From Belnapia moabensis DSM 16746 (GTDB taxonomy: Bacteria > Pseudomonadota > Alphaproteobacteria > Acetobacterales > Acetobacteraceae): a stretch of DNA of 64,000 bases. Position 1 is the stretch's first letter. Each line of letters opens with the position of its first letter. The notes under the pieces were generated by a model. It was not told the DNA's origin. It saw only the letters and a program-made list of their open reading frames with translations, and made no database searches. Location: assembly GCF_000745835.1 (NCBI RefSeq), contig NZ_JQKB01000008.1, forward strand, positions 62,001 to 126,000, read 5' to 3'. Shown piece after piece: positions 8,229 through 22,211 of the stretch. A program made the position numbers and the translations under genes.

Positions 8229-9302
8229 GTGCAGACCCCATCCCAGCCCTCCCCGATCGGCCCCGTGCTGGCCCGACGCAGTGCCTTGGCTACGCTCGCC
8301 GCCATTGCATGCGCCGCACCCGCCCAGCCTGCGGCGGCGTCGGCCATCTTCCGTGCCGAATGGTTCCAGTTCCAGTCGCGCTTCCTGATGGCGGACGGGC
8401 GTGTCGTCGATACCGGCAATGGGGGCGTCTCGCATTCCGAGGGCCAGGGCTGGGCCCTGCTCTTCGCCCTCACCGCGGATGACCGGCCGGGCTTCGAGCG
8501 CATCCTCGGCTGGACGCGGCGGGTGCTGCGGCGCCCGGGCGACAACCTCCATGCCTGGCGCTTCAAGCCCGATGCGGCCCTCCCGGTGGAAGACCCGAAC
8601 AACGCGACGGATGGCGATATCTGCATCGCCTGGGCCCTGCTCGATGCCGGCGCGCGTTGGGACATGCCGGACTACACGATGCTCGGCACCGCCATCGCGC
8701 GGGACATCCTGCGGCTGCTGGTCCGCCGCGTCGGCGCCTACAGCGTGCTGCTGCCGGGCGCGCGAGGCTTCGAACTGGCCGATGGGACCATCATCAACCC
8801 CTCCTACTACGTCTTCCCCGCCTTCGGCGCCCTGGCGCGAGCGGTGCCGGACCCGGCCTGGGTGCGCGTCGCGGCCGATGGGCTGGTGCTGCTGCGCCAA
8901 TGCCGCTTCGGCCGCTGGGGCCTGCCGCCCGACTGGGCCGTGCTCGCCCGCGCCGATGGTGGGCTGACCCTGCCGTCGAACTGGCCGCCGCGCTTCTCCT
9001 TCGACGCGGTACGGGTGCCGCTCTACCTGGCCTGGGCCGGCCTCGGGGGAGAGCCGGTGCTCGAGCGTGTGCGCAATTTCTGGATCGATCCCGCGAATCC
9101 GTTCATGCCGGCCTGGGCGGACCTGACCAACGACCGCATCGCCCCCTATCCGGCTTCACCTGGGGTTACTGCCATTGCCCGCCTTGCCGGAGCGCAAAGG
9201 CCTACAGGGCCGGTGACGCAGCGGGCGGAAGGCATGGTCGCGGATGCGCCCGATTACTACTCCGCGGCGCTCAGCCTCCTGGTCCGCATGGCGCAGCGGT
9301 AA
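8229..9302 (+). CDS. bcsZ: Cellulose-operon endoglucanase, glycoside hydrolase family 8
   Basis: A secreted endo-beta-1,4-glucanase of family GH8, the cellulase that accompanies bacterial cellulose synthases and trims or edits nascent glucan. The motif SHSEGQGWAL carries the catalytic Glu (about E71), and DGDICIAWAL and NPSYYVFPAF are further family blocks. A signal peptide (LARRSALATLAAIACAAPAQPAAASA) lies near the N terminus. The GTG at 8229 gives a sensible peptide of 357 residues; starting at 8103 would put about 50 extra residues before the signal. It is the first gene of the bcs cluster, as in Komagataeibacter (cmcAx). Confidence 0.88.
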   Translation: MQTPSQPSPIGPVLARRSALATLAAIACAAPAQPAAASAIFRAEWFQFQSRFLMADGRVVDTGNGGVSHSEGQGWALLFALTADDRPGFERILGWTRRVLRRPGDNLHAWRFKPDAALPVEDPNNATDGDICIAWALLDAGARWDMPDYTMLGTAIARDILRLLVRRVGAYSVLLPGARGFELADGTIINPSYYVFPAFGALARAVPDPAWVRVAADGLVLLRQCRFGRWGLPPDWAVLARADGGLTLPSNWPPRFSFDAVRVPLYLAWAGLGGEPVLERVRNFWIDPANPFMPAWADLTNDRIAPYPASPGVTAIARLAGAQRPTGPVTQRAEGMVADAPDYYSAALSLLVRMAQR

Positions 9303-9338
9303 GCCGAGGGCAAGATTGCGCAAAAGTTGATATGCTGT

Positions 9339-9362
9339 TCAAAAACCTATTCCGTTTTGAAT
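9339..9362. promoter_or_regulatory. AT-rich inverted repeat ahead of the bcs synthase genes
   Basis: Seven-base arms TTCAAAA (9339-9345) and TTTTGAA (9356-9362) flank a 10-base centre inside an unusually AT-rich 104-base gap between bcsZ and the accessory gene. It ends 44 bases before the accessory gene start. It fits an operator or an upstream promoter element for the bcs genes; no specific factor is recognised. Confidence 0.4.
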
Positions 9363-9406
9363 GAACTCACGGCATGTTGTTCTCCATCTAAGGGAACGAC
9401 TGCGCG

Positions 9407-10045
9407 ATGGAACGGGACTCGGATGTTGCTCGGGTAGCGGCAGCCTTGAAGTCTCCCGGACTCCGGTACCGGAGCTTCGGGAACGAGCCGGTGCGTGGAA
9501 CGCCGTCTCAATCAGTGGATGATGCTCCGAATTCCTTCCCTCTAGTCGGCGCCGCGATGGAGGCCGCGGCGGCGGAAGCGAAGCCGGCTCCCCCGGCGGC
9601 CGAGCCGCATGCCTCGGTGCCTCCCCCAAGTTTCGTCCCGCTGCCCGCCGATTTCGCCAGCCGGCCTTCGCCCGGCCCGGTCGACCTCAGCTACAAGCTG
9701 CCCGAACCCGCCCGCCCGGCCGCGCCAACGCCCGTCGCCGAGGCGCCCTACCGGCCGCAGCCACCCTTGCCCGAGCCGCCCGCGGCGCCTTTTTTCGCAC
9801 CGTCCCCCGCTCCGGCTCCCTCTCACGCGTCTTCTGGCACTCTCGCCACCCTGCTGCACGGCATGGCGCAGACCGTCGCCCCGCCGGGCTGGCCCGCCGC
9901 CATGCCACAGACCGGCCTGCTGCCCGCCGGCATGGTCACCCTGCCGCTCGCCGAGGTGATGCGCCTGGTCGGCGGCGCTCAGCCGGAACTGGCCTCGCCC
10001 TTCGCCGCCTTCCGCGTCGCGGGCCATCCCTCGGGCGTGCGCTAG
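9407..10045 (+). CDS. Proline-rich cellulose-synthesis accessory protein, CcpAx/BcsO-P-like
   Basis: A 212-residue protein of three parts. The N-terminal segment is DVARVAAALKSPGLRYRSFG. A long Pro/Ala-rich disordered middle spans about residues 50-145. The short C-terminal helical block is LPLAEVMRLVGGAQPELASP. From memory, CcpAx (cellulose complementing factor of Komagataeibacter) has the same layout: a D-x-x-R-V...Y-x-x-Y-R-x-F start, a proline-rich middle and an AEVFMTLGG...SP end. CcpAx helps arrange synthase terminal complexes with BcsD. Its position directly before bcsQ-bcsAB supports a Bcs role. Sequence identity is low, so the family name is an inference. Confidence 0.6.
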   Translation: MERDSDVARVAAALKSPGLRYRSFGNEPVRGTPSQSVDDAPNSFPLVGAAMEAAAAEAKPAPPAAEPHASVPPPSFVPLPADFASRPSPGPVDLSYKLPEPARPAAPTPVAEAPYRPQPPLPEPPAAPFFAPSPAPAPSHASSGTLATLLHGMAQTVAPPGWPAAMPQTGLLPAGMVTLPLAEVMRLVGGAQPELASPFAAFRVAGHPSGVR

Positions 10046-10065
10046 ACAGGATCGGGGAAGGCAGA

Positions 10066-10890
10066 ATGCCGCTGATCTGCGTGGCCGCGCCCAAGGGAGG
10101 CGTCGGCAAGACCACGCTCGCTGCCAACCTCGCCGATGCGCTGCATCGCGCGGGCCACCCGGTGCTGGCGATGGATTGCGACCCGCAGAACGCGCTCCGC
10201 CTGCATTTCGGCCTGCCGGTGCGGGACGCCGCCGGCTTCCTGATGGAACTGCCTCGCCGCCCCGACTGGCGCGGCCTCGTCCGCGACACCGATTCCGGCG
10301 TCGCCCTGCTGCCGCATGGGGCGACCGACATCCGCGCCGCGCTGCGCCTCGCCGCCGCGCTGGAGCGCGAGCCGGAGCTGCTGCTGGCCCCGGTGCGCGC
10401 CATGCTGGCAACGCCCGGCCTCGTCCTGCTGGCCGACCTGCCGCCCGGCCCCTCGCAGGTGCTGAACCTGCTGGCGCCGCTCGCCGACCTTGTCGTGACG
10501 GTGCTGCTGGCCGATGCGACCAGCGCCGCCCTGGTGCCCGAGATCGACAGCGGCCGCTTCCTCGGCGGCGGGACCCTGGCCGCGCTCCACACCAGCCGCG
10601 TGCGCGTCGTGCTGAACCAGGTCGAGGCCTCTTCCCGCCTCTCCCGCGCCGTGGCCGAGGCACTGGTCCGCCATCTCGGCCCCCGCCTGCTCGGCGCCAT
10701 CTGCCGCGACGAGGCGGTGGCCGAAGCGGTCGCCGCCCAGCGCCTGCTGCACGCGCTGGCCCCGGACAGCCCCGCAGCCCTCGACATCGGGGACATCACC
10801 CGCGGCATCGCCGCCCTGCTGCCGCCACTGCCCCTGTCCATTGGGCCTCAGTCCATTGGGCCCCTCCCGACGGAACCGGTCGCGCCATGA
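10066..10890 (+). CDS. bcsQ: BcsQ, ParA/MinD-type ATPase of cellulose synthesis
   Basis: A 274-residue ParA/MinD-family ATPase with a deviant Walker A, PKGGVGKTTL (residues 9-18). The switch-like segment MDCDPQNALRLHFG is characteristic of BcsQ, and LLADLPPGPSQVL is the Walker B area. In enterobacteria BcsQ is needed for cellulose synthesis and localises the synthase at a pole. The stop codon overlaps the bcsAB start (ATGA at 10887-10890), so translation is probably coupled. The C-terminal tail holds a duplicated SIGP motif encoded by a 15-base-period repeat. Confidence 0.88.
   Translation: MPLICVAAPKGGVGKTTLAANLADALHRAGHPVLAMDCDPQNALRLHFGLPVRDAAGFLMELPRRPDWRGLVRDTDSGVALLPHGATDIRAALRLAAALEREPELLLAPVRAMLATPGLVLLADLPPGPSQVLNLLAPLADLVVTVLLADATSAALVPEIDSGRFLGGGTLAALHTSRVRVVLNQVEASSRLSRAVAEALVRHLGPRLLGAICRDEAVAEAVAAQRLLHALAPDSPAALDIGDITRGIAALLPPLPLSIGPQSIGPLPTEPVAP
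10836..10862 (+). repeat. Two-copy direct repeat in the bcsQ tail
   Basis: GTCCATTGGGCC occurs at 10836-10847 and again at 10851-10862, a period of 15 bases (five codons). It encodes SIGPQSIGP at the BcsQ C terminus and looks like a slipped-strand duplication that kept the frame. Confidence 0.8.
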
Positions 10891-13800
10891 GCACCAGCAC
10901 CCGCGACCGGCTCGCCCGCCTGCCCTTCATGCGCAGCCGCATCGGCGGCACTTTTGCCATCCTCGTCGGCCTGACCGCGGCGCTGACGGTGATCGTCGCG
11001 CCGCTCGAGCCGAAGGACCAGGCCTATCTGGCGATCGGCGGAGTGATGCTCTTCCTCGCCGCCAATGTCTTCCGCGGCCGCGTGATGACGCTCGCCCTCG
11101 CGGCTCTCTCCACCATCGTCTCGCTGCGCTACCTGTACTGGCGGCTGAGCGACACGCTCGACTACACGAGCTTCTGGCAGACCTTCCTCGGCACCGGCCT
11201 GGTGATCGCCGAGGTCTATGCCGCCGTCGCGCTCATCCTCTCCTACTTCCAGACGCTCTGGCCGCTCGATCGCAAGCCGGTGCCGCTGCCGGACGATGTC
11301 GCCGCCTGGCCGGTCGTCGATGTCTTCATCCCGACCTACAACGAGCCGCTGGAGGTGGTGAAGCCGACCGTCTTCGCGGCCCTCGCCATCGACTGGCCGC
11401 CCGAGAAGCTGCGCGTCCATGTGCTCGACGACGGACGGCGCGAGGATTTCCGCCGCTTCGCCGCCGAGGTCGGCGCCAACTACATCACCCGGCCCGACAA
11501 CAAGGGCGCCAAGGCGGGCAACATCAACCACGCGATGGGCGTCACCAGCGGCGAGTTCATCGCCGTGTTCGACTGCGACCATGTGCCTACGCGCGCCTTC
11601 CTCCAGCTCACCCTCGGCTGGCTGCTGCGTGACCGCGACCTCTGCATGGTGCAGACGCCGCACCACTTCTATTCGCCCGACCCCTTCGAGCGGAACCTCG
11701 TCTCCGGCTCGCGCGTGCCGAACGAGAACCTGCTCTTCTACGGCCTCATCCAGCAGGGCAACGACTTCTGGGGCGGCACCTTCTTCTGCGGCTCCTGCGC
11801 CGTCATTCGGCGCGAGGCGCTGGAGGAGATCGGCGGCGTGCCGACCGAGACGGTGACGGAGGACTGCCACGCCTCGCTGCGCATGCAGCGGCTCGGCTGG
11901 CGCACCGCCTATATCCGCATGCCGCTCGCGGCCGGCCTCGCGACCGAGCGGCTGATGCTGCATATCGGCCAGCGCATGCGCTGGGGGCGGGGGATGATCC
12001 AGATCCTCCGCATCGAGAACCCGCTGACGGCGAGCGGCCTCGGGTGGTCCGAGCGGCTTTGCTACTTCATGGCGATGTTCCACTTCCTCTTCCCGCTGCC
12101 GCGCTTCGTCTTCCTCACCGCGCCGCTCGCCTACCTGCTCGGCGGGCAGACCATCATCGCGGCCTCGCCGCTGGCGATCGTCGCCTATGCCGGGCCGCAC
12201 ATCATCCATTCCATCGTGACGGCGAGCCGCATCCAGGGCCGCGTCCGCCACTCCTTCTGGTCGGAGATCTACGAGGCCGTGCTTGCCGTCTATCTGCTGC
12301 CGGTCACGCTGGCGACCCTGCTCGACCCGCGCCGCGGCAAGTTCAACGTCACCGACAAGGGCGGCACGCTGGCCGATGGCTATTTCGACATGCGCGCGGT
12401 CGGGCCCAACATGGTGCTCGCCCTCTTCCTCGCCGCCGGCCTCGGCTTCGGCCTCTGGGGACTGATGACCAACCCGAGGCAGAGCCTCGAATTCCAGGCC
12501 TACATGCTGAACCTCCTCTGGTGCTCGCTCTGCTTCATCACGGTGATGACCGGCCTCGCCGTTGGGCGCGAGCGGCGCCAGCTGCGCGAGCGGGCGCGGA
12601 TCAGCGCCGATGTCCCGGCCACCATCCTGCTGCCCGACGGCCGCGCGGTCGAGGGCGAGACGCGCGACCTCTCCCTCGGCGGCGCCGCGGTCTATGCCGA
12701 CCGCCCCGAGGGCATGGTCGACGACGCGGTGGTGACGCTCGAGCTGCACTGTGGCCATGAGACGATCCCGCTGCCGGCCGAGGTTCTGCGCTGGTCGGAG
12801 GGGCGCCTGCAGGTGCGCTTCGTCCCGCAGGACCTGCATGACGAGGGCCGCATCGTCCGCGCCGTGCTCGGCCGCGCCGATGCCTGGATGCCCTGGGACG
12901 AGACGCGGATCGACCGGCCGCTGCGCTCGCTGCGCGAGGTGATGGTGAGCATCACCGGCCTGGTGCGCGGCGGCTCGCAATTCTCGCTGCGCCGCCGCGC
13001 CCCGGCGATGGCCCACCATGTCCCGGTCATCGCCGAGCCGGAGCGCCCGCCGGCGCCGAGCCGCGTCACGACACGCCGCGCCGCGGCCTGGCTGCTCGTG
13101 GGCCTCGGCCTCACCGCCGCCGGCCAGGCCTCGGCGCAGCCGCGCCCCGCCTTCGGCCAGGCCCCAACCTATGCGCCGGCGCCCGCACTCGCCGCCCCCG
13201 GCGCGCATGACCCGACGCTCGGGACGCGCCGCATCAGCTATACGCTGCGCCAGCTCGGCCTCCGCTCGCCGATGCAGCTCCGCGGCACCTCCGACCTGCA
13301 AGGCGTGCTCTTCGGCGTCCGCGGCGACGAGGTGGTGACGGATGCCCGCCTCGTCATGCAGGGCTCGACCTCGCCCGCGCTGATCCCCGAGCTGAGCCAG
13401 ATCTCCATCGCGCTGAACGAGCAATTCGTCGGCGCCATCCAGCCGGACCGCAACCGGCCGAATTTCGGCCCGCTAGAATTCCCGGTGAACCCGGTCTTCT
13501 TCGCCGACAACAACCGGCTGAACATCCGCTTCTCCGGCCGCTACGCGGTCGAGTGCAACGACCCGCTCTCCGGCCTGCTCTGGGCCGTCGTCTCCGACAC
13601 CTCGACGCTGAACCTCACCCTGGAGAAGCTGCCGCTGACCCGCGACCTGGCGCGGCTGCCGGAGCCCTTCTTCGACCCGCGCCTGCTGCGCGAGCAGCTG
13701 GTACTGCCCGTGATCCTTGCCGAGGGCGCCGGCAACGACGCGCTGCGGGCGGCGGCCATCGCCTCCTCCTGGTTCGCGGTGCAGGCCGACTACCGCACCG

Positions 13801-15356
13801 CCCGCTTCCCCGTCGCCCCCGTGCCGCCGCCGCGCGGCCATGCGGTGATGGTCGCCACCAGCGGCGACGTCATCCAGGGCGTGCCGCTGCCGCGCTTCGA
13901 CGGCCCGACCGTCGCCCTGCTGCCCAACCCGAACGACCCCTTCGGCCTCATCCTCGTCCTCGGCGGCCGCACCGGGGCGGAGGCGGTGGCCGCCGCCTCG
14001 GTACTCGCGGTCGGGCGCGAGGCGCTGTCGGGCGAGGCGGCCATCGTCCAGCTGCCGGAGATGGCGGCCCGCCAGCCCTATGACGCGCCACGCTGGGTTC
14101 GCAGCAACCGCCCGGTGAAGCTCGGCGAGCTGGTCGACCCGACGGAGCTGCAGGTCTCCGGCTACTCGCCCGGCGCCATCTCCATCCCCTTTCGCACCGC
14201 GCCCGACCTCTTCACCTGGCGCAACCAGCCCTTGCAGGCCGATATCCGCTTCCGCGCCCCCCCGGGCCCCATCGTCGACGTCGCCGTCTCCCGCGTCGAC
14301 GCCACCATCAACGACCTCTACCTGAAGAGCTTCCCGCTGCGCGGCCCGGAGCCGGCCTGGCCGCTCTCCGCCGTCGCCGGATGGTTCGGCGGCACCGGCG
14401 ACCGCTCCGAGGCACGCCTCGGCATCCCGCCCTGGATCGTCTTCGGCCAGAACGAGCTGCAACTGCGCTTCGACATGCGCCCGCTCTCGCGCGGCGAATG
14501 CGTCGCCATCCCCGGCGACATCCATGCCGGCATCGACCCGGACAGCACGATCGACCTCTCCTCGGCCTACCGCTTCACCCGCCTGCCGAACCTCGCCTAT
14601 TTCGCCAGCTCCGGCTTCCCCTTCACCCGCCTCGCCGACCTCTCCACCACCGCCGTCGTCCTGCCCGACCGGCCGAGCACCAGCGAGCTCTCGGCCTTCC
14701 TCGGCCTGATCGGCCGCATCTCCGCCCTCGTCGGCCATCCGGCGACCGGTGTGCAGGTGGTGCGGCCCCAGGCGCTGGCCCAGGCGACGGAGAAGGACCT
14801 CATCGTCATCGGCGCCCTCGGCCGCCAGCCGGCCCTGCCGCAGCTGATGGCGCACGCGCCGGTGCAGATCGACGGCAACCGCCTCACCGTCGCCCTGCCG
14901 GACATGCTGGGCGGCTTCCGCCACATCTTCGGCGCCGGCGACCGGACGGGGGCGGCGGAACGCGCCTCGGCCCAGCTCTCGGCACCGGGCGACGGGCTCG
15001 GCGCGGTCTTCGGCTTCGAATCGCCGCTGAAGCCCGGCCGCTCCGTGCTCGCGCTGACCGGCACCACCCCGGCCGCGCTCGAGGACATGGTCGCCGCCCT
15101 GCAGGACCGCGAGCAGTTGCCCCGCGTCGAGGGCGACCTCGTCCTGCTCACCGCCGGCAAGCTCCAGGGCTACAGCCTCGGCCGCAGCTACAACACCGGC
15201 GTGCTGCCGCCCTGGCTCTGGCCGCAGGTCTATCTCTCGACCAGCCCGGCGGCGCTGCTCGGCCTGCTCGCCCTCGCCGCCCTGCTGGTCTCGGCGCCCG
15301 TCTACTGGGTGCTCCGCCGCCGCGCGATCCGCCGCCTGCGCATGAGGACAAGCTGA
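10887..15356 (+). CDS. bcsA: Fused cellulose synthase catalytic subunit BcsA and periplasmic subunit BcsB
   Basis: One 1489-residue polypeptide joining BcsA and BcsB. The BcsA part (about 1-690) is a multi-span membrane GT2 synthase using UDP-glucose. Its motifs are DDG (D181-D182), DCD (D229, D231), TED (324-326) and QRMRW (362-366). A cytoplasmic PilZ domain at about 560-665 has RRQLR and DLSLGG, the two c-di-GMP-binding motifs, so activity should need c-di-GMP. At about 733-750 lies AAWLLVGLGLTAAGQASA, which reads like a retained BcsB signal/anchor. The BcsB part (about 751-1489) is periplasmic and ends in a membrane helix (LLGLLALAALLVSAPVYWVL). Fusions like this are known in Komagataeibacter (AcsAB). 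Its start overlaps bcsQ. Confidence 0.93.
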   Translation: MSTSTRDRLARLPFMRSRIGGTFAILVGLTAALTVIVAPLEPKDQAYLAIGGVMLFLAANVFRGRVMTLALAALSTIVSLRYLYWRLSDTLDYTSFWQTFLGTGLVIAEVYAAVALILSYFQTLWPLDRKPVPLPDDVAAWPVVDVFIPTYNEPLEVVKPTVFAALAIDWPPEKLRVHVLDDGRREDFRRFAAEVGANYITRPDNKGAKAGNINHAMGVTSGEFIAVFDCDHVPTRAFLQLTLGWLLRDRDLCMVQTPHHFYSPDPFERNLVSGSRVPNENLLFYGLIQQGNDFWGGTFFCGSCAVIRREALEEIGGVPTETVTEDCHASLRMQRLGWRTAYIRMPLAAGLATERLMLHIGQRMRWGRGMIQILRIENPLTASGLGWSERLCYFMAMFHFLFPLPRFVFLTAPLAYLLGGQTIIAASPLAIVAYAGPHIIHSIVTASRIQGRVRHSFWSEIYEAVLAVYLLPVTLATLLDPRRGKFNVTDKGGTLADGYFDMRAVGPNMVLALFLAAGLGFGLWGLMTNPRQSLEFQAYMLNLLWCSLCFITVMTGLAVGRERRQLRERARISADVPATILLPDGRAVEGETRDLSLGGAAVYADRPEGMVDDAVVTLELHCGHETIPLPAEVLRWSEGRLQVRFVPQDLHDEGRIVRAVLGRADAWMPWDETRIDRPLRSLREVMVSITGLVRGGSQFSLRRRAPAMAHHVPVIAEPERPPAPSRVTTRRAAAWLLVGLGLTAAGQASAQPRPAFGQAPTYAPAPALAAPGAHDPTLGTRRISYTLRQLGLRSPMQLRGTSDLQGVLFGVRGDEVVTDARLVMQGSTSPALIPELSQISIALNEQFVGAIQPDRNRPNFGPLEFPVNPVFFADNNRLNIRFSGRYAVECNDPLSGLLWAVVSDTSTLNLTLEKLPLTRDLARLPEPFFDPRLLREQLVLPVILAEGAGNDALRAAAIASSWFAVQADYRTARFPVAPVPPPRGHAVMVATSGDVIQGVPLPRFDGPTVALLPNPNDPFGLILVLGGRTGAEAVAAASVLAVGREALSGEAAIVQLPEMAARQPYDAPRWVRSNRPVKLGELVDPTELQVSGYSPGAISIPFRTAPDLFTWRNQPLQADIRFRAPPGPIVDVAVSRVDATINDLYLKSFPLRGPEPAWPLSAVAGWFGGTGDRSEARLGIPPWIVFGQNELQLRFDMRPLSRGECVAIPGDIHAGIDPDSTIDLSSAYRFTRLPNLAYFASSGFPFTRLADLSTTAVVLPDRPSTSELSAFLGLIGRISALVGHPATGVQVVRPQALAQATEKDLIVIGALGRQPALPQLMAHAPVQIDGNRLTVALPDMLGGFRHIFGAGDRTGAAERASAQLSAPGDGLGAVFGFESPLKPGRSVLALTGTTPAALEDMVAALQDREQLPRVEGDLVLLTAGKLQGYSLGRSYNTGVLPPWLWPQVYLSTSPAALLGLLALAALLVSAPVYWVLRRRAIRRLRMRTS

Positions 15357-18300
15357 TGCTCCGCCGCGCGCCCCTTATCGCCGCCGCGCTGCTGCTGCCG
15401 CCGGTCGCGCTCGCCCAAGGCCAAGCCCAGCCCACTGCCGCCACCGCGGCCCAGGGCGGGCAGGAAGGCGCCATCACCGCCCTGCTCGACCAAGCGAATT
15501 ACTGGCGCCTGCAGAACCGGCCGGAACTCGTCATCCGCACGCTGGAGCGGTTGCTCGTCGTCGATCCGCGCAATGTCGAGGCGCTGGCCGGCGCCGCCCA
15601 GGCGCATGCCCATCTCGGCAACCGCCAGCCGGCCGAAAGCTACCTCGCGCGGCTGCGCCAGGTGGCGCCCGGCGACCCGCGGCTCGGCGAGACCGACATC
15701 ACCGTCCGCGCCGCGACTGTCGATACCGGCGCGCTGGCCGAGGCCCGCCGCCTCGCCGGGGCTGGCCGCGCCGCCGAGGCGGTGCAGCGCTACCAGGAGC
15801 TGTTCCGCGGCGCGACGCCGCCCGACGGCTACGCCCAGGAATACTACGCGACCCTCGCCGGCACCGAGCAGGGCTACCCGGAGGCGCGCGACGGCCTCGC
15901 CCGCCTCGCTGCCCGCTCGCCGAGCGACATGCGCCTGCAGCTCGCCCATGCCCAGGTGCTGACCTACCGCGACGCCACGCGCAACGACGGCATCGGCCGC
16001 CTCCGCCAGCTCGCCGCCAACCCGGAGGTGGCGAACACCGCGACCGCCGCCTGGCGCCAGGCGCTGCTCTGGCAGGGCCCAAGCAAGGACATGGTCCCGG
16101 CGCTGCAATCCTTCCTCGAACGCTTCCCGAATGACGGCGACATCGCCCGCAAGCTGGCCGAGGCGCAGAACCCGCCCGCCGGCACGCCGGACGAGGCGAG
16201 CCTCACCCGCATCCGCGGCTTCGAGCAGCTGAACGCCGGTCGCCTGCGCGACGCCCAGCGCGACTTCGAGGCCGCCGTCGCCCGCAACCCGGAGGATGCC
16301 GACGCCACCGGCGGCCTCGGCCTCGTCCGGCTGCGCGAGGGCCGCTACGGCGAGGCGCGCAGCCTGCTCGAGCGCGCCATCCGCCTCGACCCCGGGAAGC
16401 GCGACCAGTGGCAGCGCGCCCTCGACGGCGCCGGCTATGCCGCCGACCTCGCCACCGCCCGCAGCCAGCTCCAGGCCGGCAACCTCGACGCCGCCGAGCA
16501 GACTCTCCGCCGTGCCACCAGCCGCGGCGCCGGCGACCGCGCCGATGCCGATGCGCTGCTCGGCGACCTCGCGCTGCGCCGCGGTGACCTCGCCGGCGCC
16601 GAATCCCGCTACCACGCCGCGCTCGGCCGCCGCCCCAATCTCGGCCCCGCCGCCAGCGGCCTCTACGAGGTACTGCAGCAGCAGGGCCGCTTCGCCGAAG
16701 CGGAGGAGCTGCAACGCAACGCCCGCGGCCCGCTCGCCGGCGGCGATGCCATGTCCGGCCGGGCGAACGCCATCCGCACCGAGGCCCAGCGCAACCCGGA
16801 CCCGGCCGCCGCCATCGCCATGCTCCGCCAGGCGCTCCAGGCCGACCCGTCGAGCCCCTGGATCCGCCTCGACCTCGCCCGGCTGCTCGCGCGCCAGGGC
16901 AGCGGCGCCGAGGCCCGCCAGCTGATGGAGTCCGCCGCCGCCACCGGCAACCCCGCCTCGCTGCACGCCGCCTCGCTCTTCGCCGAGGAGGATGGCCGCC
17001 CCGCCGATGCCGCCGGCTACCTCGACCGCATCCCCGTCCGCCTGCGCAACGCCGACATGAACGGCCTGCTGGCCCGCGCCCGCATCGCCGCCGAGGTGCA
17101 GGCGGCAGCCAACCTCATCCGCTCCGGCCAGCAGGCCCAGGGCCGCCTCCAGCTCATCGGCATCGCCCGCCGCGCTGACCCGACCGGCACCAACGCCCAG
17201 CTCGCCATCCGCAAGCTCGGCCAACTGAACGATCCGATGGGCGCCGCCGAGGCCGGCCGCGCCGCGCTCGCCGCCAACCCCCGCGCCAGCGCCTCCGCCC
17301 GCCTCGCCATCGCCACCGCCCTGCTCGGCGCCGGGGCGGAGGCCGATGCCATCGCGCTCGCCCGCGCCGTGGAGGCCCTGCCCAACCTGACGGGAGAGGA
17401 ACGCCGCCAGGCCGCCGCCCTGCAATCCGGCCTCGCCGTCCGCGCTGCCGACCGGCTGAACGAGCAGGGCGACCAGGCCGGCGCCTATGACCTGCTCGCC
17501 CCCGTCCTGGCCCGCGACCCGACCAACGCCCCGGCCAACCTGGCGCTCGCCCGGCTCTACCAGGGCGCCAACCAGCCCCAGGCTGCCGGCCGCATCGCCG
17601 AGGGCGTCCTCCAGGCTGACCCGTCCAGCCTCGAAGCCCGCTTCGCCGCCATGGACGCCGCCATCGCCGCGCGCGACTGGGGCCGGGCCGAGGCCCTGCT
17701 GGTCGAGGCCCGCGCCATCAGCCCCGGCGACCTCCGCGTCTCGCTGGCGGAGGCGCGCCTCGCCCGCGCCGCTGGCCAGAACGGCCGTGCCCTGCGCGCG
17801 CTGGAGATGGCCGCCGCCCAGCGCCGCTCCCAGGCCACCCAAGGGGGCGACCCCACCGCCGGCAACGGCCCGTTGCTCGCCCAGGCCGGCCGCGACAACC
17901 CCTTCCGCCGCGGCGGCCTGCCCGGCACCCCCCTCGCCCCCGCTATCGACCCGGTCGATGCCGAGATCCAGCGCGAGCTCGGCTTGGTGCGCGAGGAAAC
18001 CACCGCCCGTCTCCAGGGCGCCGTCGCCTACCGCACCCGCTCCGGCACCAGCGGCCGCGACCGGCTGGAGGAGGTCTCCGCCCCGCTCGAAGCCTCCATC
18101 GCCCCCGGCGGCCGCATCACCGCGACGGTCACGCCGGTCAGCATCGCCACCGGCAAGCTGAACGCCGACAACATCGAGGGCCTGCGCGCCTATGGCAGCA
18201 ACGCCCTCGCCCCCGGCCTGCAAGGGACGACGCCCTCGGCCAGCCCCGCCGACCGCCAGCGCCTCACCGCGCGGGACACCACGGCGACTGGCGTCGGCCT

Positions 18301-19111
18301 CGGCCTCGGCTATGCGCGGGAGAGCTTCCGCGCCGATGTCGGCACCTCGCCCATCGGCTTCCGCGAGCAGAATTTCCTGGGCGGCGTCGAATTCGCCCCC
18401 GCCCTCAGCCCGACACTTAAGCTGCGGCTGACCGCCGAGCGCCGCTCGGTGACCGACAGCCTGCTCTCCTGGTCCGGTGTGCGCGACCCGGCAAGCGGCC
18501 AGGTCTGGGGCGGCGTAGTCCGCACCGGCGGGCGGGCGCAGCTGGAATACGGCACCGGCCCGGTCGGCCTTTACGCCGGGGCCGGCTACTCCAGCTTCAC
18601 CGGCCGCAACACCGCCAGCAACAACCGCTTCGAGGCCGGGGCAGGGGCCTCCTACCAGGTCTGGCGGCGGCCGGGCGACGAGCTGACGGCCGGGCTCGAC
18701 CTCGTCTACTTCGCCTATGACAACAACCAGCGCCTCTTCACCTACGGCAATGGCGGCTATTTCAGCCCGCAGAGCTACTTCGCCGCCAACATCCCGGTCG
18801 ACTGGCGCGGCCGCGACGGCGACCTCTCCTGGCGGCTCGGCGGCACCATCGGCTACCAGAGCTACCGCGAGGACGCCGCCCGCTACTTCCCGACCGATAC
18901 CGGCGCCCAGGCCCAGCTCGAATCCGACCCGACCGCCAGGGCCAGCCAGGCGGCCCGCAGCGCCTCCGTCATCATCGGCGGGGTCCGCGGCGACATCGAC
19001 TATGCCGTGACGCCCAATCTTCGCATCGGCGCCCTGCTGCGCTACGACCGCACCGCGAATTGGAACGAGGCACGCGGCATGTTCTTCGCCCGCTACCGGT
19101 TCGACAAGTGA
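15356..19111 (+). CDS. bcsC: Cellulose export protein BcsC (TPR plus outer-membrane barrel)
   Basis: A 1251-residue secreted protein. The signal peptide (MLRRAPLIAAALLLPPVALA) is followed by a long run of tetratricopeptide repeats (about residues 40-870) that spans the periplasm. The C-terminal region (about 900-1251) is a beta-barrel ending RYDRTANWNEARGMFFARYR, the usual BcsC porin end through which glucan leaves the cell. The ATG shares one base with the bcsAB stop (TGATG at 15354-15358), so the genes are translationally linked. Length and domain order match the family. Confidence 0.92.
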   Translation: MLRRAPLIAAALLLPPVALAQGQAQPTAATAAQGGQEGAITALLDQANYWRLQNRPELVIRTLERLLVVDPRNVEALAGAAQAHAHLGNRQPAESYLARLRQVAPGDPRLGETDITVRAATVDTGALAEARRLAGAGRAAEAVQRYQELFRGATPPDGYAQEYYATLAGTEQGYPEARDGLARLAARSPSDMRLQLAHAQVLTYRDATRNDGIGRLRQLAANPEVANTATAAWRQALLWQGPSKDMVPALQSFLERFPNDGDIARKLAEAQNPPAGTPDEASLTRIRGFEQLNAGRLRDAQRDFEAAVARNPEDADATGGLGLVRLREGRYGEARSLLERAIRLDPGKRDQWQRALDGAGYAADLATARSQLQAGNLDAAEQTLRRATSRGAGDRADADALLGDLALRRGDLAGAESRYHAALGRRPNLGPAASGLYEVLQQQGRFAEAEELQRNARGPLAGGDAMSGRANAIRTEAQRNPDPAAAIAMLRQALQADPSSPWIRLDLARLLARQGSGAEARQLMESAAATGNPASLHAASLFAEEDGRPADAAGYLDRIPVRLRNADMNGLLARARIAAEVQAAANLIRSGQQAQGRLQLIGIARRADPTGTNAQLAIRKLGQLNDPMGAAEAGRAALAANPRASASARLAIATALLGAGAEADAIALARAVEALPNLTGEERRQAAALQSGLAVRAADRLNEQGDQAGAYDLLAPVLARDPTNAPANLALARLYQGANQPQAAGRIAEGVLQADPSSLEARFAAMDAAIAARDWGRAEALLVEARAISPGDLRVSLAEARLARAAGQNGRALRALEMAAAQRRSQATQGGDPTAGNGPLLAQAGRDNPFRRGGLPGTPLAPAIDPVDAEIQRELGLVREETTARLQGAVAYRTRSGTSGRDRLEEVSAPLEASIAPGGRITATVTPVSIATGKLNADNIEGLRAYGSNALAPGLQGTTPSASPADRQRLTARDTTATGVGLGLGYARESFRADVGTSPIGFREQNFLGGVEFAPALSPTLKLRLTAERRSVTDSLLSWSGVRDPASGQVWGGVVRTGGRAQLEYGTGPVGLYAGAGYSSFTGRNTASNNRFEAGAGASYQVWRRPGDELTAGLDLVYFAYDNNQRLFTYGNGGYFSPQSYFAANIPVDWRGRDGDLSWRLGGTIGYQSYREDAARYFPTDTGAQAQLESDPTARASQAARSASVIIGGVRGDIDYAVTPNLRIGALLRYDRTANWNEARGMFFARYRFDK

Positions 19112-19146
19112 TGGACACCTCGCTCACCTTCCCGGAAGGGCCTCGC

Positions 19147-19617
19147 ATGACGGCAGCCGAGCCGAATGCCCTCAGCTATCTCGCCCGCCGCGGCGTCGCG
19201 GCGCAGTGGCGCGGCTTCCTCCGCGCCCTGGTCGAGACGTTGGACGCCAACCTCGACGCCGCCTCGCGCGACGCCCTGCTGCGTGCCGTCGGCGCCCGCT
19301 TCGCCACCCTGACCCCGTTGCCCGCCTGCGCCGGCCTCGCCGAGCTGGAGGCCCGGGTGAACGAGGCCCTGGCGGCCGCCGATTGGGGCTGGGCCGAGAT
19401 CGCCCTCGACCCGAACGACCGCGCCCTCGTCGTCACCCATTGCGCCGCCCCCCTGGTGGCGACCGGGGCCGACCCCTCCGGCGGCTGGGTCGGCGCGGTG
19501 CTGGAGGGCCTCTACGGCACCTGGTTCGGCGCCCAGCCCGGCGCCGAGCCGAGCCTCGTCCCCCGCCGCACCGGCAGCAGGCCGGGCGTCATCCTCCTCC
19601 GCTACGGCCGGGGCTGA
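19147..19617 (+). CDS. bcsD: Cellulose synthase subunit BcsD
   Basis: A small (156-residue) protein matching BcsD in size, position and the segments YLARRGVAAQWRGFLRAL and WGWAEIALDPNDRALVVTH. In Komagataeibacter, BcsD forms a cylindrical octamer in the periplasm that guides glucan chains, which favours ordered cellulose. The ATG at 19147 has GGAAGGG seven bases upstream and gives the usual length. An earlier ATG at 19111, overlapping the bcsC stop, would add 12 residues and cannot be excluded. It is the last bcs gene of the cluster; a GC-rich hairpin follows at once. Confidence 0.82.
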   Translation: MTAAEPNALSYLARRGVAAQWRGFLRALVETLDANLDAASRDALLRAVGARFATLTPLPACAGLAELEARVNEALAAADWGWAEIALDPNDRALVVTHCAAPLVATGADPSGGWVGAVLEGLYGTWFGAQPGAEPSLVPRRTGSRPGVILLRYGRG

Positions 19618-19665: not shown

Positions 19666-21207
19666 ATGAGCCTTTCTCCGCGCCTGCGGGCCCCCTTCGC
19701 CGCGATCGACCGCGTCTTCGGCATCCTCGTCGTCCCGCTGGCGATGCTGCTGGCCTCGCTGCTGCTGCGCGCCCTCGGCTTCACCGTCGCGGTGATCGAC
19801 ACGGATGAGGGGCTCTACCTGGTCCAAGCCCAGCAATGGCTGCGCGGCCACTGGCCGCTGGTCGCGGTCTGGGACATGCACCCGGTCGGCGCGCCGGCGG
19901 TCTTCGCCGCGGCGATGGCCGTTTTTGGCGAGAGCATCGCCACCATCCGCCTGCTCGGCTGCTTCTGCGTGGCGCTGGCCGCCTGGGCGCTCTATGGCGC
20001 GGTGCGAACGGCGGGCGGGCCGCGCGGCATCGGCCTGGCGGCGGGCTTCATCTACATCGCTCATAGTCTCAGGATGGGCGGGCTCGCCACCAATACCGAG
20101 ATCCTGTTCGCCCCGCTCACCGTCTCCGCCATGGCGCTCGGCATCCGCGGCCTGGCCGGGACGCTCCGCCTGCGGGAGGCGCCCGGCTGGCCCGGGCTGG
20201 TCGCCATGGGCCTGCTGATCGGGTCGGCGCTCGCCATCAAGCCGGTGATGGTGGTCGAGGGCTGCCTTTGCTTCGCGCTGATGGTCTTTCCCGCTCTCTG
20301 GCTCCGCCTGCTGCCCTGGCGCCGGGCGCTGGCGATGGCCGCTGCCTATGCCGGGCTCTGCGCCCTGCCGACGCTGATCTTCGGCCTGCTCTACTGGTGG
20401 CAGGGGGCGCTGGCCGACTTCCTCGACGGCACCTTCCTCGGCCCGCTCCGCTATGCCGAGGGGCGGCTCGGCGGGGTGGAGTCCTTCCACCGCATCCTCG
20501 TCGAGATCCTGACTTTGCTCTGGCCCATCGCGCTGGCCGGCACCGCCCTGCTGCGCTGGCTGCCGCGGCGCGGCATCGCCGGGATGCTGGTGCGGGTCGG
20601 GCTGATCTGGTTCGCCGCCGCCAGCGTCGGCGTCGCCTCGCCGGGCTATTTCTACCCGCACTACTTCCTGCTGTGGCTGCCCTCCCTCGCGCTGATGGCG
20701 ACCTTCGGGTGCTGGCGCCTCGCCCGCTGGCTGCCGGCGCACCGCCGCGCCCCCGGCTTCGCCCTGCTGGTCGCGGTGGTGATGATCGGCTCCTGGCGCG
20801 CCGACGCCACCGCCCGCGTCGACCGCGGCATCGGCCTGTTCGAAGCCGACCCGGTGGTCGAGATCACCCGCCTGATCCGCGCCGAGCTGAAGCCGGGCGA
20901 GACCATCTTCGTCGCCAACTACCATCCCGTCATCTACGCGCTGACCGATGCGGCGCTGCCGACGCGCTTCGTCTTCCCCGCCCAGCTCACCGGCGAGTTC
21001 ACCGACATCGCCGGCATCAACACCGATGCCGAGGTGGCGCGCATCATGGCGACCCGCCCGCGCTTCGTCGTCATCGACCGCGGTTGGTGGCCGCGCCTGC
21101 GCGAGAGTGCGGCGGCCATCATCACCGAGGCGCTCGAGAGCGACTACCACCAGGTGGGCGAGGTGCCGGAGGAGCGCGGCCCGATCGAGCTCTGGGCACC
21201 GAAATAG
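19666..21207 (+). CDS. Polytopic membrane glycosyltransferase, GT39/ArnT-like
   Basis: A 513-residue protein with about ten or more hydrophobic segments. The first periplasmic loop carries VIDTDEGLYLVQAQQWLRGH, the acidic motif (D/E) used by PMT/ArnT-type enzymes that transfer sugars from polyprenyl-phosphate donors. A soluble C-terminal part starts near residue 395. It begins 48 bases after bcsD on the same strand, separated only by a GC hairpin, so it may be co-transcribed with the bcs operon at a reduced level. The acceptor is unknown: lipid, protein or exopolysaccharide. Confidence 0.72.
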   Translation: MSLSPRLRAPFAAIDRVFGILVVPLAMLLASLLLRALGFTVAVIDTDEGLYLVQAQQWLRGHWPLVAVWDMHPVGAPAVFAAAMAVFGESIATIRLLGCFCVALAAWALYGAVRTAGGPRGIGLAAGFIYIAHSLRMGGLATNTEILFAPLTVSAMALGIRGLAGTLRLREAPGWPGLVAMGLLIGSALAIKPVMVVEGCLCFALMVFPALWLRLLPWRRALAMAAAYAGLCALPTLIFGLLYWWQGALADFLDGTFLGPLRYAEGRLGGVESFHRILVEILTLLWPIALAGTALLRWLPRRGIAGMLVRVGLIWFAAASVGVASPGYFYPHYFLLWLPSLALMATFGCWRLARWLPAHRRAPGFALLVAVVMIGSWRADATARVDRGIGLFEADPVVEITRLIRAELKPGETIFVANYHPVIYALTDAALPTRFVFPAQLTGEFTDIAGINTDAEVARIMATRPRFVVIDRGWWPRLRESAAAIITEALESDYHQVGEVPEERGPIELWAPK

Positions 21208-21232: not shown

Positions 21233-21275
21233 TTCTGGCGCATGATCCCCGGCAAGATTGAAGGGGGAGAGAGGC

Positions 21276-22211
21276 ATGGCCGAGTTGCGCATCCTGGCCG
21301 AGGGGCTGCGGTTCCCGGAGGGTCCGGTCGCCATGCCGGATGGCAGCATCATCCTGGTCGAGATCGCCGCCGGCACCCTCACCCGCGTCGCCCCGGACGG
21401 GACGAAGACCACCGTCGCCCGCCCCGGCGGCGGCCCGAACGGCATCGCCCTCGGCCCGGACGGCAAGATCTTCTGCTGCAACAACGGCGGCTTCCTCTGG
21501 CACGAGGAGCCGGGCTTCATCCGCCCCATCGGCCAGTCGCCCGACTACAGCGGCGGCCGCATCGAGGTGATCGACCCGCGATCGGGCGATGTGCGCGTGC
21601 TTTACGACCGCTGCGGCGACCATAAGCTGAAAGGCCCGAACGACATCGTCTTCGCGCCCAAGGGCAGCCCCGGCGACGGCGGCTTCTGGTTCACCGACCT
21701 CGGCAAGGTCCGCGCCCGCGACCGCGACCATGGCGGCGTCTACTGGGCCGCGACCGACGGCTCGAAGATTGTCGAGGCCGCCTACCCGGTCTTCGGCGGC
21801 GCCAACGGCATCGCCCTCTCGCCCGACGGCCGCACCCTCTACGCCGCCGAGACGGAAACGGGCCGCCTCTGGGCCTGGGACATCGAAGGCCCCGGCGTGG
21901 TGCGCAAGGACCCCTGGCCCTCCTCGAACGGCGGCCGCGTGCTCTGCCAGTTCCCCGGCTACCGCCGCCTCGACAGCGTCGCCGCGACGGCCGCCGGCAA
22001 CATCTGCGTCGCAACGTTGGTGAGCGGCGAGATCACCACCGTCTCCCCCAGCGGCGAGATCATCCGCGTGGTGAAGATGCCGGAGCCGATGCCCACCAAC
22101 CTCTGCTTCGGCGGGCCCGACCGGCGCACCGCCTTCATCACCCTCTCCACCACTGGCAAGCTGGCTGCGATGGGGTGGGACGAGCCCGGCCTCCACCTTC
22201 CGCACAACTGA
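21276..22211 (+). CDS. SMP-30/gluconolactonase/LRE family protein
   Basis: A 311-residue six-bladed beta-propeller of the SMP-30/gluconolactonase family, which hydrolyses sugar-acid or other lactones with a bound divalent metal. Typical blade elements are GLRFPEGPVAMPDGSI with the metal-ligand Glu, GPNGIALGPDG, GPNDIVFAPKG and GANGIALSPDGRTLY. The ATG at 21276 follows GGGGGAGAG, an excellent ribosome site; an upstream TTG is not needed. It is the first gene of a two-gene unit with an FAH-family enzyme 11 bases downstream. Confidence 0.85.
   Translation: MAELRILAEGLRFPEGPVAMPDGSIILVEIAAGTLTRVAPDGTKTTVARPGGGPNGIALGPDGKIFCCNNGGFLWHEEPGFIRPIGQSPDYSGGRIEVIDPRSGDVRVLYDRCGDHKLKGPNDIVFAPKGSPGDGGFWFTDLGKVRARDRDHGGVYWAATDGSKIVEAAYPVFGGANGIALSPDGRTLYAAETETGRLWAWDIEGPGVVRKDPWPSSNGGRVLCQFPGYRRLDSVAATAAGNICVATLVSGEITTVSPSGEIIRVVKMPEPMPTNLCFGGPDRRTAFITLSTTGKLAAMGWDEPGLHLPHN

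Follow-up and report, generated by a model that had tools for sequence, protein, structure and literature searches.

How did bcsQ come to stand in a cellulose cluster laid out like those of Komagataeibacter, and what does the small proline-rich gene beside it do? We analyzed a 64,000-nucleotide stretch of Belnapia moabensis DSM 16746 (contig NZ_JQKB01000008.1, positions 62,001 to 126,000; hereafter the window) from a 6.7 Mb draft genome. At 8229-19617, six open frames run head to tail on the + strand in the order bcsZ, a proline-rich gene, bcsQ, fused bcsAB, bcsC and bcsD. These are the identities and the order given in the original prediction, which read the cluster as a Komagataeibacter layout with bcsQ inserted. 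The layout does agree with Komagataeibacter-type loci apart from bcsQ; the insertion falls, because bcsQ is present in 42 of the 53 decidable fused-bcsAB clusters with bcsD in the family Acetobacteraceae and in 20 of 21 further fused ones, a majority of the kind that the prediction itself had set against its reading. We find it rather probable that the window holds a complete type I cellulose secretion operon in the form usual for the family, with a BcsH/BcsP-type adaptor and an ancestral bcsQ. BcsD is encoded here with the synthase, the feature by which the accessible text of PMC11470070 defines type I Bcs systems. The six genes are as follows.

8229..9302, + strand: bcsZ, GH8 endoglucanase (PF01270, E 5.5e-61; open frame from 8103)
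9407..10045, + strand: candidate proline-rich scaffold of the BcsH/BcsP type, 212 aa (placed by its position between bcsZ and bcsQ; no Pfam family)
10066..10890, + strand: bcsQ, SIMIBI ATPase (TIGR03371, PF06564; KGGVGKT at residues 10-16, 10093-10113)
10887..15356, + strand: fused bcsAB, one frame of 1489 residues (TIGR03030, 835.8 bits; PF03170)
15356..19111, + strand: bcsC, outer-membrane exporter with TPR repeats (PF05420, E 5.1e-96)
19111..19617, + strand: bcsD (PF03500, E 6.8e-46; best PDB match 8pkd, 1e-17)

Distribution and history of bcsQ

The window's ATPase is a Bcs-type BcsQ. It scores 158.5 bits against TIGR03371, just above the cut-off of 157.85, and 101.5 bits against PF06564; the enterobacterial model PRK10037 gives 55.5 bits, under its cut-off of 399. 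In a sequence search, its best PDB match is E. coli BcsQ (7.3e-11), with ParA and MinD behind. A BcsQ tree of 52 rows, built with a careful method, splits 40 BcsQ from 12 non-Bcs ParA proteins at 99/98, which bears out the assignment against the grouping with ParA that would have spoken against it.

A draw of 299 genomes from the family gave BcsD in 78. Of the 79 BcsD places besides that of the window, 78 were retrieved (the weak second match of genome G015 was left out), and the survey covered 79 loci including the window; bcsA was out of reach at 17 of them, and 3 fused clusters were truncated upstream. Of the decidable fused clusters, 11 were without bcsQ, and among clusters with separate bcsA and bcsB it occurred in one of six. 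A larger draw (BcsD in 120 of 397 genomes) added 42 genomes, from which 40 loci were fetched (G846 and G888 were not); 10 were without bcsA, 3 were cut and 27 were decidable, namely the 21 further fused clusters and six split ones, one with bcsQ and five without. One of these loci, L320 (genome G863, genus g54), has fused bcsAB and bcsD but neither bcsQ nor a recognized proline-rich gene between bcsZ and bcsAB. Outside the family, bcsQ occurs in 11 of 14 BcsD loci; the three without it are Methylobacterium L214, L216, whose stretch contains no synthase genes, and L226, cut at bcsA.

Nine of the 16 bcsQ-less loci of the first draw lie in genera g60 and g73, which we call Komagataeibacter-type on gene order and on the PF17040 match (4.3e-27) of the same-position protein at L054; the others belong to g11 (two), g7, g12, g19, g41 and g76. 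Relocation of bcsQ within these genomes was considered and rejected: when 10 of the 16 were searched with TIGR03371, nine peaked at 60-81 bits, below the cut-off; the bcsQ of the tenth, G143 (155.6 bits), sits in that genome's other cluster. G143 holds two BcsD clusters (L066, L074), one with bcsQ and one without. A published count points the other way: the accessible part of PMC13028821 states that for 17 of 18 Komagataeibacter genomes a bcsQ on the anchor contig was "selected". This conflicts with bcsQ-less Komagataeibacter-type clusters unless other ParA genes were picked up there; ParA proteins scoring 55-78 bits against the BcsQ model do occur in Komagataeibacter-type genomes.

The BcsQ and BcsA trees agree. 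Path lengths in the two correlate with rho 0.90 over 25 rows, a value reached in 0 of 2000 permutations, and the family's BcsQs stand together at 86/99 bar one (g38). The BcsA tree (73 rows, quick method, plain model; long-branch warnings; outgroup not recovered on a single side) requires five changes of bcsQ state and makes nine Komagataeibacter-type rows sister (support 90, not starred) to nine bcsQ-bearing rows, among them Kozakia (L103, identified by an identical BcsQ). A change count alone cannot separate gain from loss; because 11 of the 14 outside clusters carry bcsQ, we infer loss rather than gain, and descent with several losses is the simplest history. Most likely, bcsQ is present by descent in the window and was lost in Komagataeibacter-type clusters.

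A Komagataeibacter-type cluster that received bcsQ by transfer is a reading that can appeal to the gene order, equal to that of Komagataeibacter-type loci apart from this one gene. Against it stand the prevalence of bcsQ among fused clusters, the matching BcsQ and BcsA distances, and the adjacency of Komagataeibacter-type and bcsQ-bearing rows in the BcsA tree; family distribution and both trees largely refute insertion, which we regard as very improbable. The presence of bcsQ is itself ordinary, being normal in the family and most likely lost elsewhere.

Proposed modules of the proline-rich protein

The "Ccp-like" label of the original prediction rests on position and composition, and in these it stood: the gene is proline-rich and, as in BcsH/CcpAx loci, lies between bcsZ and the synthase gene, with bcsQ intervening before bcsAB. 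A match to Pfam CBP_CCPA (PF17040) did not accompany it. Three short segments carry the comparison with known adaptors.

9422..9478, + strand: N-terminal plug motif, residues 6-24 (DVARVAAALKSPGLRYRSF); invariant D6, L14 and Y21; hidden Markov model (HMM) match with independent E-value 4.1e-4
9536..9547, + strand: FPLV at residues 44-47, a putative handle for BcsQ (cf. WPLL in BcsR and BcsP)
9941..10015, + strand: C-terminal motif, residues 179-203 (LPLAEVMRLVGG...SPFAAFR), proposed BcsD contact

Conservation is concentrated at the N terminus. When the window protein is aligned with 14 relatives of our choosing, 12 of the 15 invariant columns fall in residues 1-30, at a mean column identity of 27%. 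By eye, D6-V-A-R-V10-A-A-A-L14-K-S-P17-G-L19-R-Y21 of the window protein runs gapless against D21-I-V-A-L25-K-Q-A-F29-S-L-P32-D-I34-D-Y36 of E. coli BcsR (sequence read from locus L232). Invariant D6, L14 and Y21 correspond to BcsR D21, F29 and Y36; one plug residue differs, S16 standing at the position of L31. According to the accessible text of PMC11470070, the plug that BcsR places in BcsA consists of L25, F29, L31 and I34; I22 is paired with Y36, and D21 is flanked by R367 and R792 of BcsA.

The plug pattern is found in 31 of 40 clusters with bcsQ and in 16 of 16 without it (L036, L048 and L072 were left out, their gene start lying off the contig). Two of the nine misses, L075 and L087, do carry the plug; the other seven come from genera g85, g23 and g26, all of which keep bcsQ. 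At L034:2596-3308 (G121, same genus), the proline-rich gene reads as two overlapping frames, reflecting either a sequencing error or a broken gene.

Window BcsA R663 (12873-12875) aligns with E. coli R792, and R236 (11592-11594) with R367. Of 59 aligned family rows, all but L078 were readable, and each of these 58 has the R792-equivalent arginine; so do 17 additional rows, a set that counts the window once more and two places twice. At this site, the eight control BcsA-like rows whose 1.5 kb flanks contain no BcsQ show S, N, D, D, D, G, G and, in one case, a misaligned R; L275, whose flank is likewise free of BcsQ, carries the hinge arginine. The pattern fits a docking site that may be kept where a plug protein is present. 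It does not test the plug itself, because plug-less rows keep the arginine too, and on the same ground the arginine was rejected as a plug marker within the family. The residue after it is Ala in 50 of the 58 rows; the other eight are seven rows of the plug-less genera g85, g23 and g26, plus L074, which has the plug. Six plug-less rows form one clade in the BcsA tree and therefore count as one event. The host's second cluster has Pro at this residue.

WPLL is present in 28 of 29 beta-proteobacterial (hereafter beta) BcsP proteins found by pattern; E. coli BcsR, whose C-terminal helices hold the BcsQ dimer (PMC11470070, accessible text), has it close to its end. In the family, the motif [FWY]P[LIVF][LIVMF] (hereafter FPL) occurs in 27 of 40 clusters with bcsQ vs. 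1 of 16 without (Fisher 5.2e-5), or by genus in 13 of 18 vs. 1 of 8 (P 0.009). The Komagataeibacter-type loci that were read have neither bcsQ nor the FPL motif. Further genomes gave 10 of 21 vs. 0 of 6 (P 0.057), five of these six coming from one genus; five open reading frames (ORFs) picked by length in this set (L304, L312, L318, L320 and L324) look like wrong frames and were counted as without motifs.

Possible readings: adaptor, linker or lineage marker

In the reading we favor, BcsAB would make the chain and BcsC export it, while BcsD would form an intracellular scaffold. The proline-rich adaptor would dock with its N-terminal plug on the hinge between the glycosyltransferase (GT) and PilZ parts of BcsA, hold the BcsQ dimer with its short [F/W]PL helix and recruit BcsD through its C-terminal motif; every one of these contacts is inferred from relatives. 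With bcsQ ancestral in the family, Komagataeibacter-type clusters would have lost it, showing no FPL motif, and kept plug and tail. A wider claim, which we hold tentatively and somewhat short of even confidence, is that BcsR, BcsP and BcsH/CcpAx form one adaptor family, the window protein keeping all three modules (BcsA plug, BcsQ handle, BcsD tail) and CcpAx being a BcsQ-less derivative with the plug. If so, the Komagataeibacter cortical belt, of which CcpAx is a protein, would be tethered directly to the synthase hinge and may activate it. The adaptor reading would thereby link the cortical belt with BcsR/BcsP activation of BcsA in a testable way and names the residues concerned: D6, V10, L14, L19, Y21 and their CcpAx counterparts. 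A partial literature search found no description of a plug-like BcsH head, and we make no claim that it is undescribed.

Kinship was assessed separately for the two ends of the protein, with HMM searches run against 18347 six-frame ORFs. A head HMM from intermediates, proline-rich proteins of other genera (14 rows, 28 residues), ranks window-type heads at the top, with the window protein at 4.1e-4, and also recovers three non-seed proline-rich genes (L075, L230 and L074). A Komagataeibacter head HMM finds the intermediate L076 at 4.7e-5, and for a beta BcsP HMM (52 residues) E. coli BcsR is the first non-BcsP ORF, at 0.0098. In profile comparisons (hhalign), heads of intermediates reach 96% to Komagataeibacter, 97.5% to window-type and 78% to beta heads, each with 0 of 200 shuffles as high; window-type to Komagataeibacter gives 67% (0 of 200) and Komagataeibacter to beta 9.6% (1 of 200).

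For the tails, residues were chosen without reference to the motif, as the last 48 residues of 26 intermediates, with L034 left out of the profile comparison for its broken frame. The resulting HMM reaches Komagataeibacter CcpAx tails at 2.4e-4 and BcsP tails at 5.1e-4, unrelated frames following from 1.5e-3. In tail profile comparisons, intermediates score 87% with Komagataeibacter and 72% with beta, values that none of 100 shuffles attained in either case. Taken by themselves, tails of the window type pick up a single intermediate (L078, 0.024), and beta tails likewise one (L100, 0.037). These sequence comparisons lend moderate support to relating both end motifs to CcpAx and, more weakly, to beta BcsP, a link that would run largely via intermediates and not directly.

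A number of results weigh against the adaptor reading. The window protein matches neither PF17040 nor PF10945 (BcsR) at a limit of E 10 with HMMER filters on, and a Pfam BcsR search of the host genome returned three weak matches (E 1.3-2.2), none in this cluster. Its AlphaFold model is too poor to use (mean predicted local distance difference test score 57.9, predicted template modeling score 0.16), although helices at 3-14 and 181-188 in that poor model coincide with the two end motifs. CcpAx and BcsP heads are absent among the 24 listed matches of the intermediates' head HMM. The match of the BcsP HMM to BcsR is confined to the segment from Y36 to WPLL and leaves out the plug; with the same HMM, the L108 and L076 proline-rich genes come in at about 0.4 and rank below two chance frames. 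The hhalign head windows were anchored on the motif and are partly circular; the searches over all ORFs are the better test and weaker in result. Window-type to beta heads give 1.7%, a value that 24 of 200 shuffles equal or exceed. In a search with Komagataeibacter tails alone no relative rises above chance, tail profiles of intermediates reach only 25% to window-type tails (2 of 100 shuffles match), and window-type tails give 0.5% to Komagataeibacter CcpAx (9.8% to beta). The PF10945 N terminus characteristic of BcsP is not recognized in the window protein: positions agree by eye, and profile links run via intermediates only. That the BcsR match skips the plug and that the intermediates' head HMM does not reach CcpAx or BcsP tempers our confidence in the adaptor family and in the favored explanation.

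The same operon could instead carry the proline-rich gene as a low-complexity linker that resembles BcsP, BcsR and CcpAx at its ends by convergence or over stretches too short to indicate homology, with BcsQ acting on BcsA unaided by it. Such a linker would sit well with a protein that has no Pfam match, with window-type and BcsP heads that are not significantly similar, with a head HMM that stops short of CcpAx and BcsP, and with motifs only about 20 residues long. It sits badly with conservation concentrated at the N terminus, with a small gene beside bcsQ also in beta-proteobacteria (BcsP) and E. coli (BcsR), and with a C-terminal link found without motif selection; we consider it rather doubtful. 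In another alternative, which comes close to an even call, bcsQ would be ancestral and the FPL pattern a lineage marker only, not a BcsQ handle. The FPL-bcsQ pattern was noticed first and tested afterwards; over five independent pairs the median P is 0.375, not significant; the further genomes fall at the P 0.057 given above, dominated by one genus among those without bcsQ; L101 keeps FPIL in a genome without bcsQ; and 13 of the 40 clusters with bcsQ are without the motif. The near-constant WPLL of beta BcsP, its recurrence in BcsR and the 27 of 40 vs. 1 of 16 contrast speak for a handle, and we treat the association as a lead.

Known systems, neighboring genes and further clusters

BcsD and BcsQ do share an operon here, the combination to which the original prediction drew attention; it is already known from beta-proteobacteria, Kozakia and Enterobacter kobei. 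The accessible text of PMC11470070 places BcsD, BcsQ and proline-rich BcsP together in beta-proteobacteria, and an Asaia figure legend names BcsQ and BcsD (PMC8156966, seen in part). Like the window, the beta BcsPDQ systems combine BcsD and BcsQ with a small or proline-rich partner that has a BcsR-like head (same text, and for Burkholderia glumae the accessible part of PMC6978641). Cupriavidus differs in having bcsD first and bcsA and bcsB separate, where the window has BcsAB fused and bcsD last, and one BcsP that was tested matches PF10945, unlike the window protein.

For Kozakia baliensis, the Fig. 5d legend in the accessible part of PMC5050591 names bcsZ, bcsQ, bcsAB and bcsC and no bcsD; the public record of plasmid pKB14400_3 of strain DSM 14400 reads bcsZ, small ORF, bcsQ, fused bcsAB, bcsC, bcsD, as in the window. 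The Kozakia cluster (L103) is plasmid-borne, unlike the window's, and its small ORF, 129 aa as annotated, is without the plug and keeps FPLI and the C-terminal motif. Komagataeibacter BcsHD (CcpAx) loci share with the window the order bcsZ, proline-rich gene, bcsAB, bcsC, bcsD, a plug-like head and the C-terminal motif; those we read differ in having no bcsQ and no FPL motif, and in the PF17040 match at L054. The Enterobacter kobei plasmid cluster bcsO-Q-A-B-C-D-GH8 likewise pairs BcsQ with BcsD and has a small gene before bcsQ; it departs from the window in BcsO (PF17037), separate A and B, the GH8 gene last and bcsFG nearby.

Within the window operon, the ATG of bcsAB at 10887 overlaps the bcsQ stop (ATGA), and TGATG overlaps mark the starts of bcsC (15356) and bcsD (19111); these overlaps of one to four bases at bcsQ/bcsAB, bcsAB/bcsC and bcsC/bcsD suggest translational coupling. 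A scan for promoters and terminators gave no signal above chance. The single bcsAB frame holds GT2, PilZ and BcsB parts, and its best-segment identity is 85-92% to Belnapia records for this cluster and 90-93% to a Craurococcus-labelled metagenome bin. The NCBI BcsZ model scores 168.8 bits on the window bcsZ, below its 299-bit cut-off. Directly 3' of bcsD, 19666-21207 encodes a PMT_2-like membrane protein (2.2e-5, slightly under the Pfam cut-off), not a glucosidase, followed by an SMP-30 family gene at 21258-22211; in Komagataeibacter, the position downstream of bcsD is that of bglX.

BcsD is matched once in the host genome. Contig C17 carries a second fused bcsAB (L229, C17:74000-90000) in the order bcsQ-bcsAB-bcsC, with no bcsZ or bcsD within the 16 kb read; in the related second clusters L129 and L130, bcsQ is preceded by a small ORF whose plug-like head reads DEPI(D/N)RLLRACGL. 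In G216 (genus g44; L230, L080), bcsD lies about 4.6 kb from bcsC, and at L116, L120, L125, L148, L152 and L155 about 1.7 kb separates the bcsAB frame from the bcsC match. The Methylobacterium aquaticum plasmid locus L214 carries bcsA-B-C-D and acetylation genes, and its stretch gave no match to bcsQ; one of its hypothetical genes (L214:23384-23746, - strand) has a plug-like head and the C-terminal motif.

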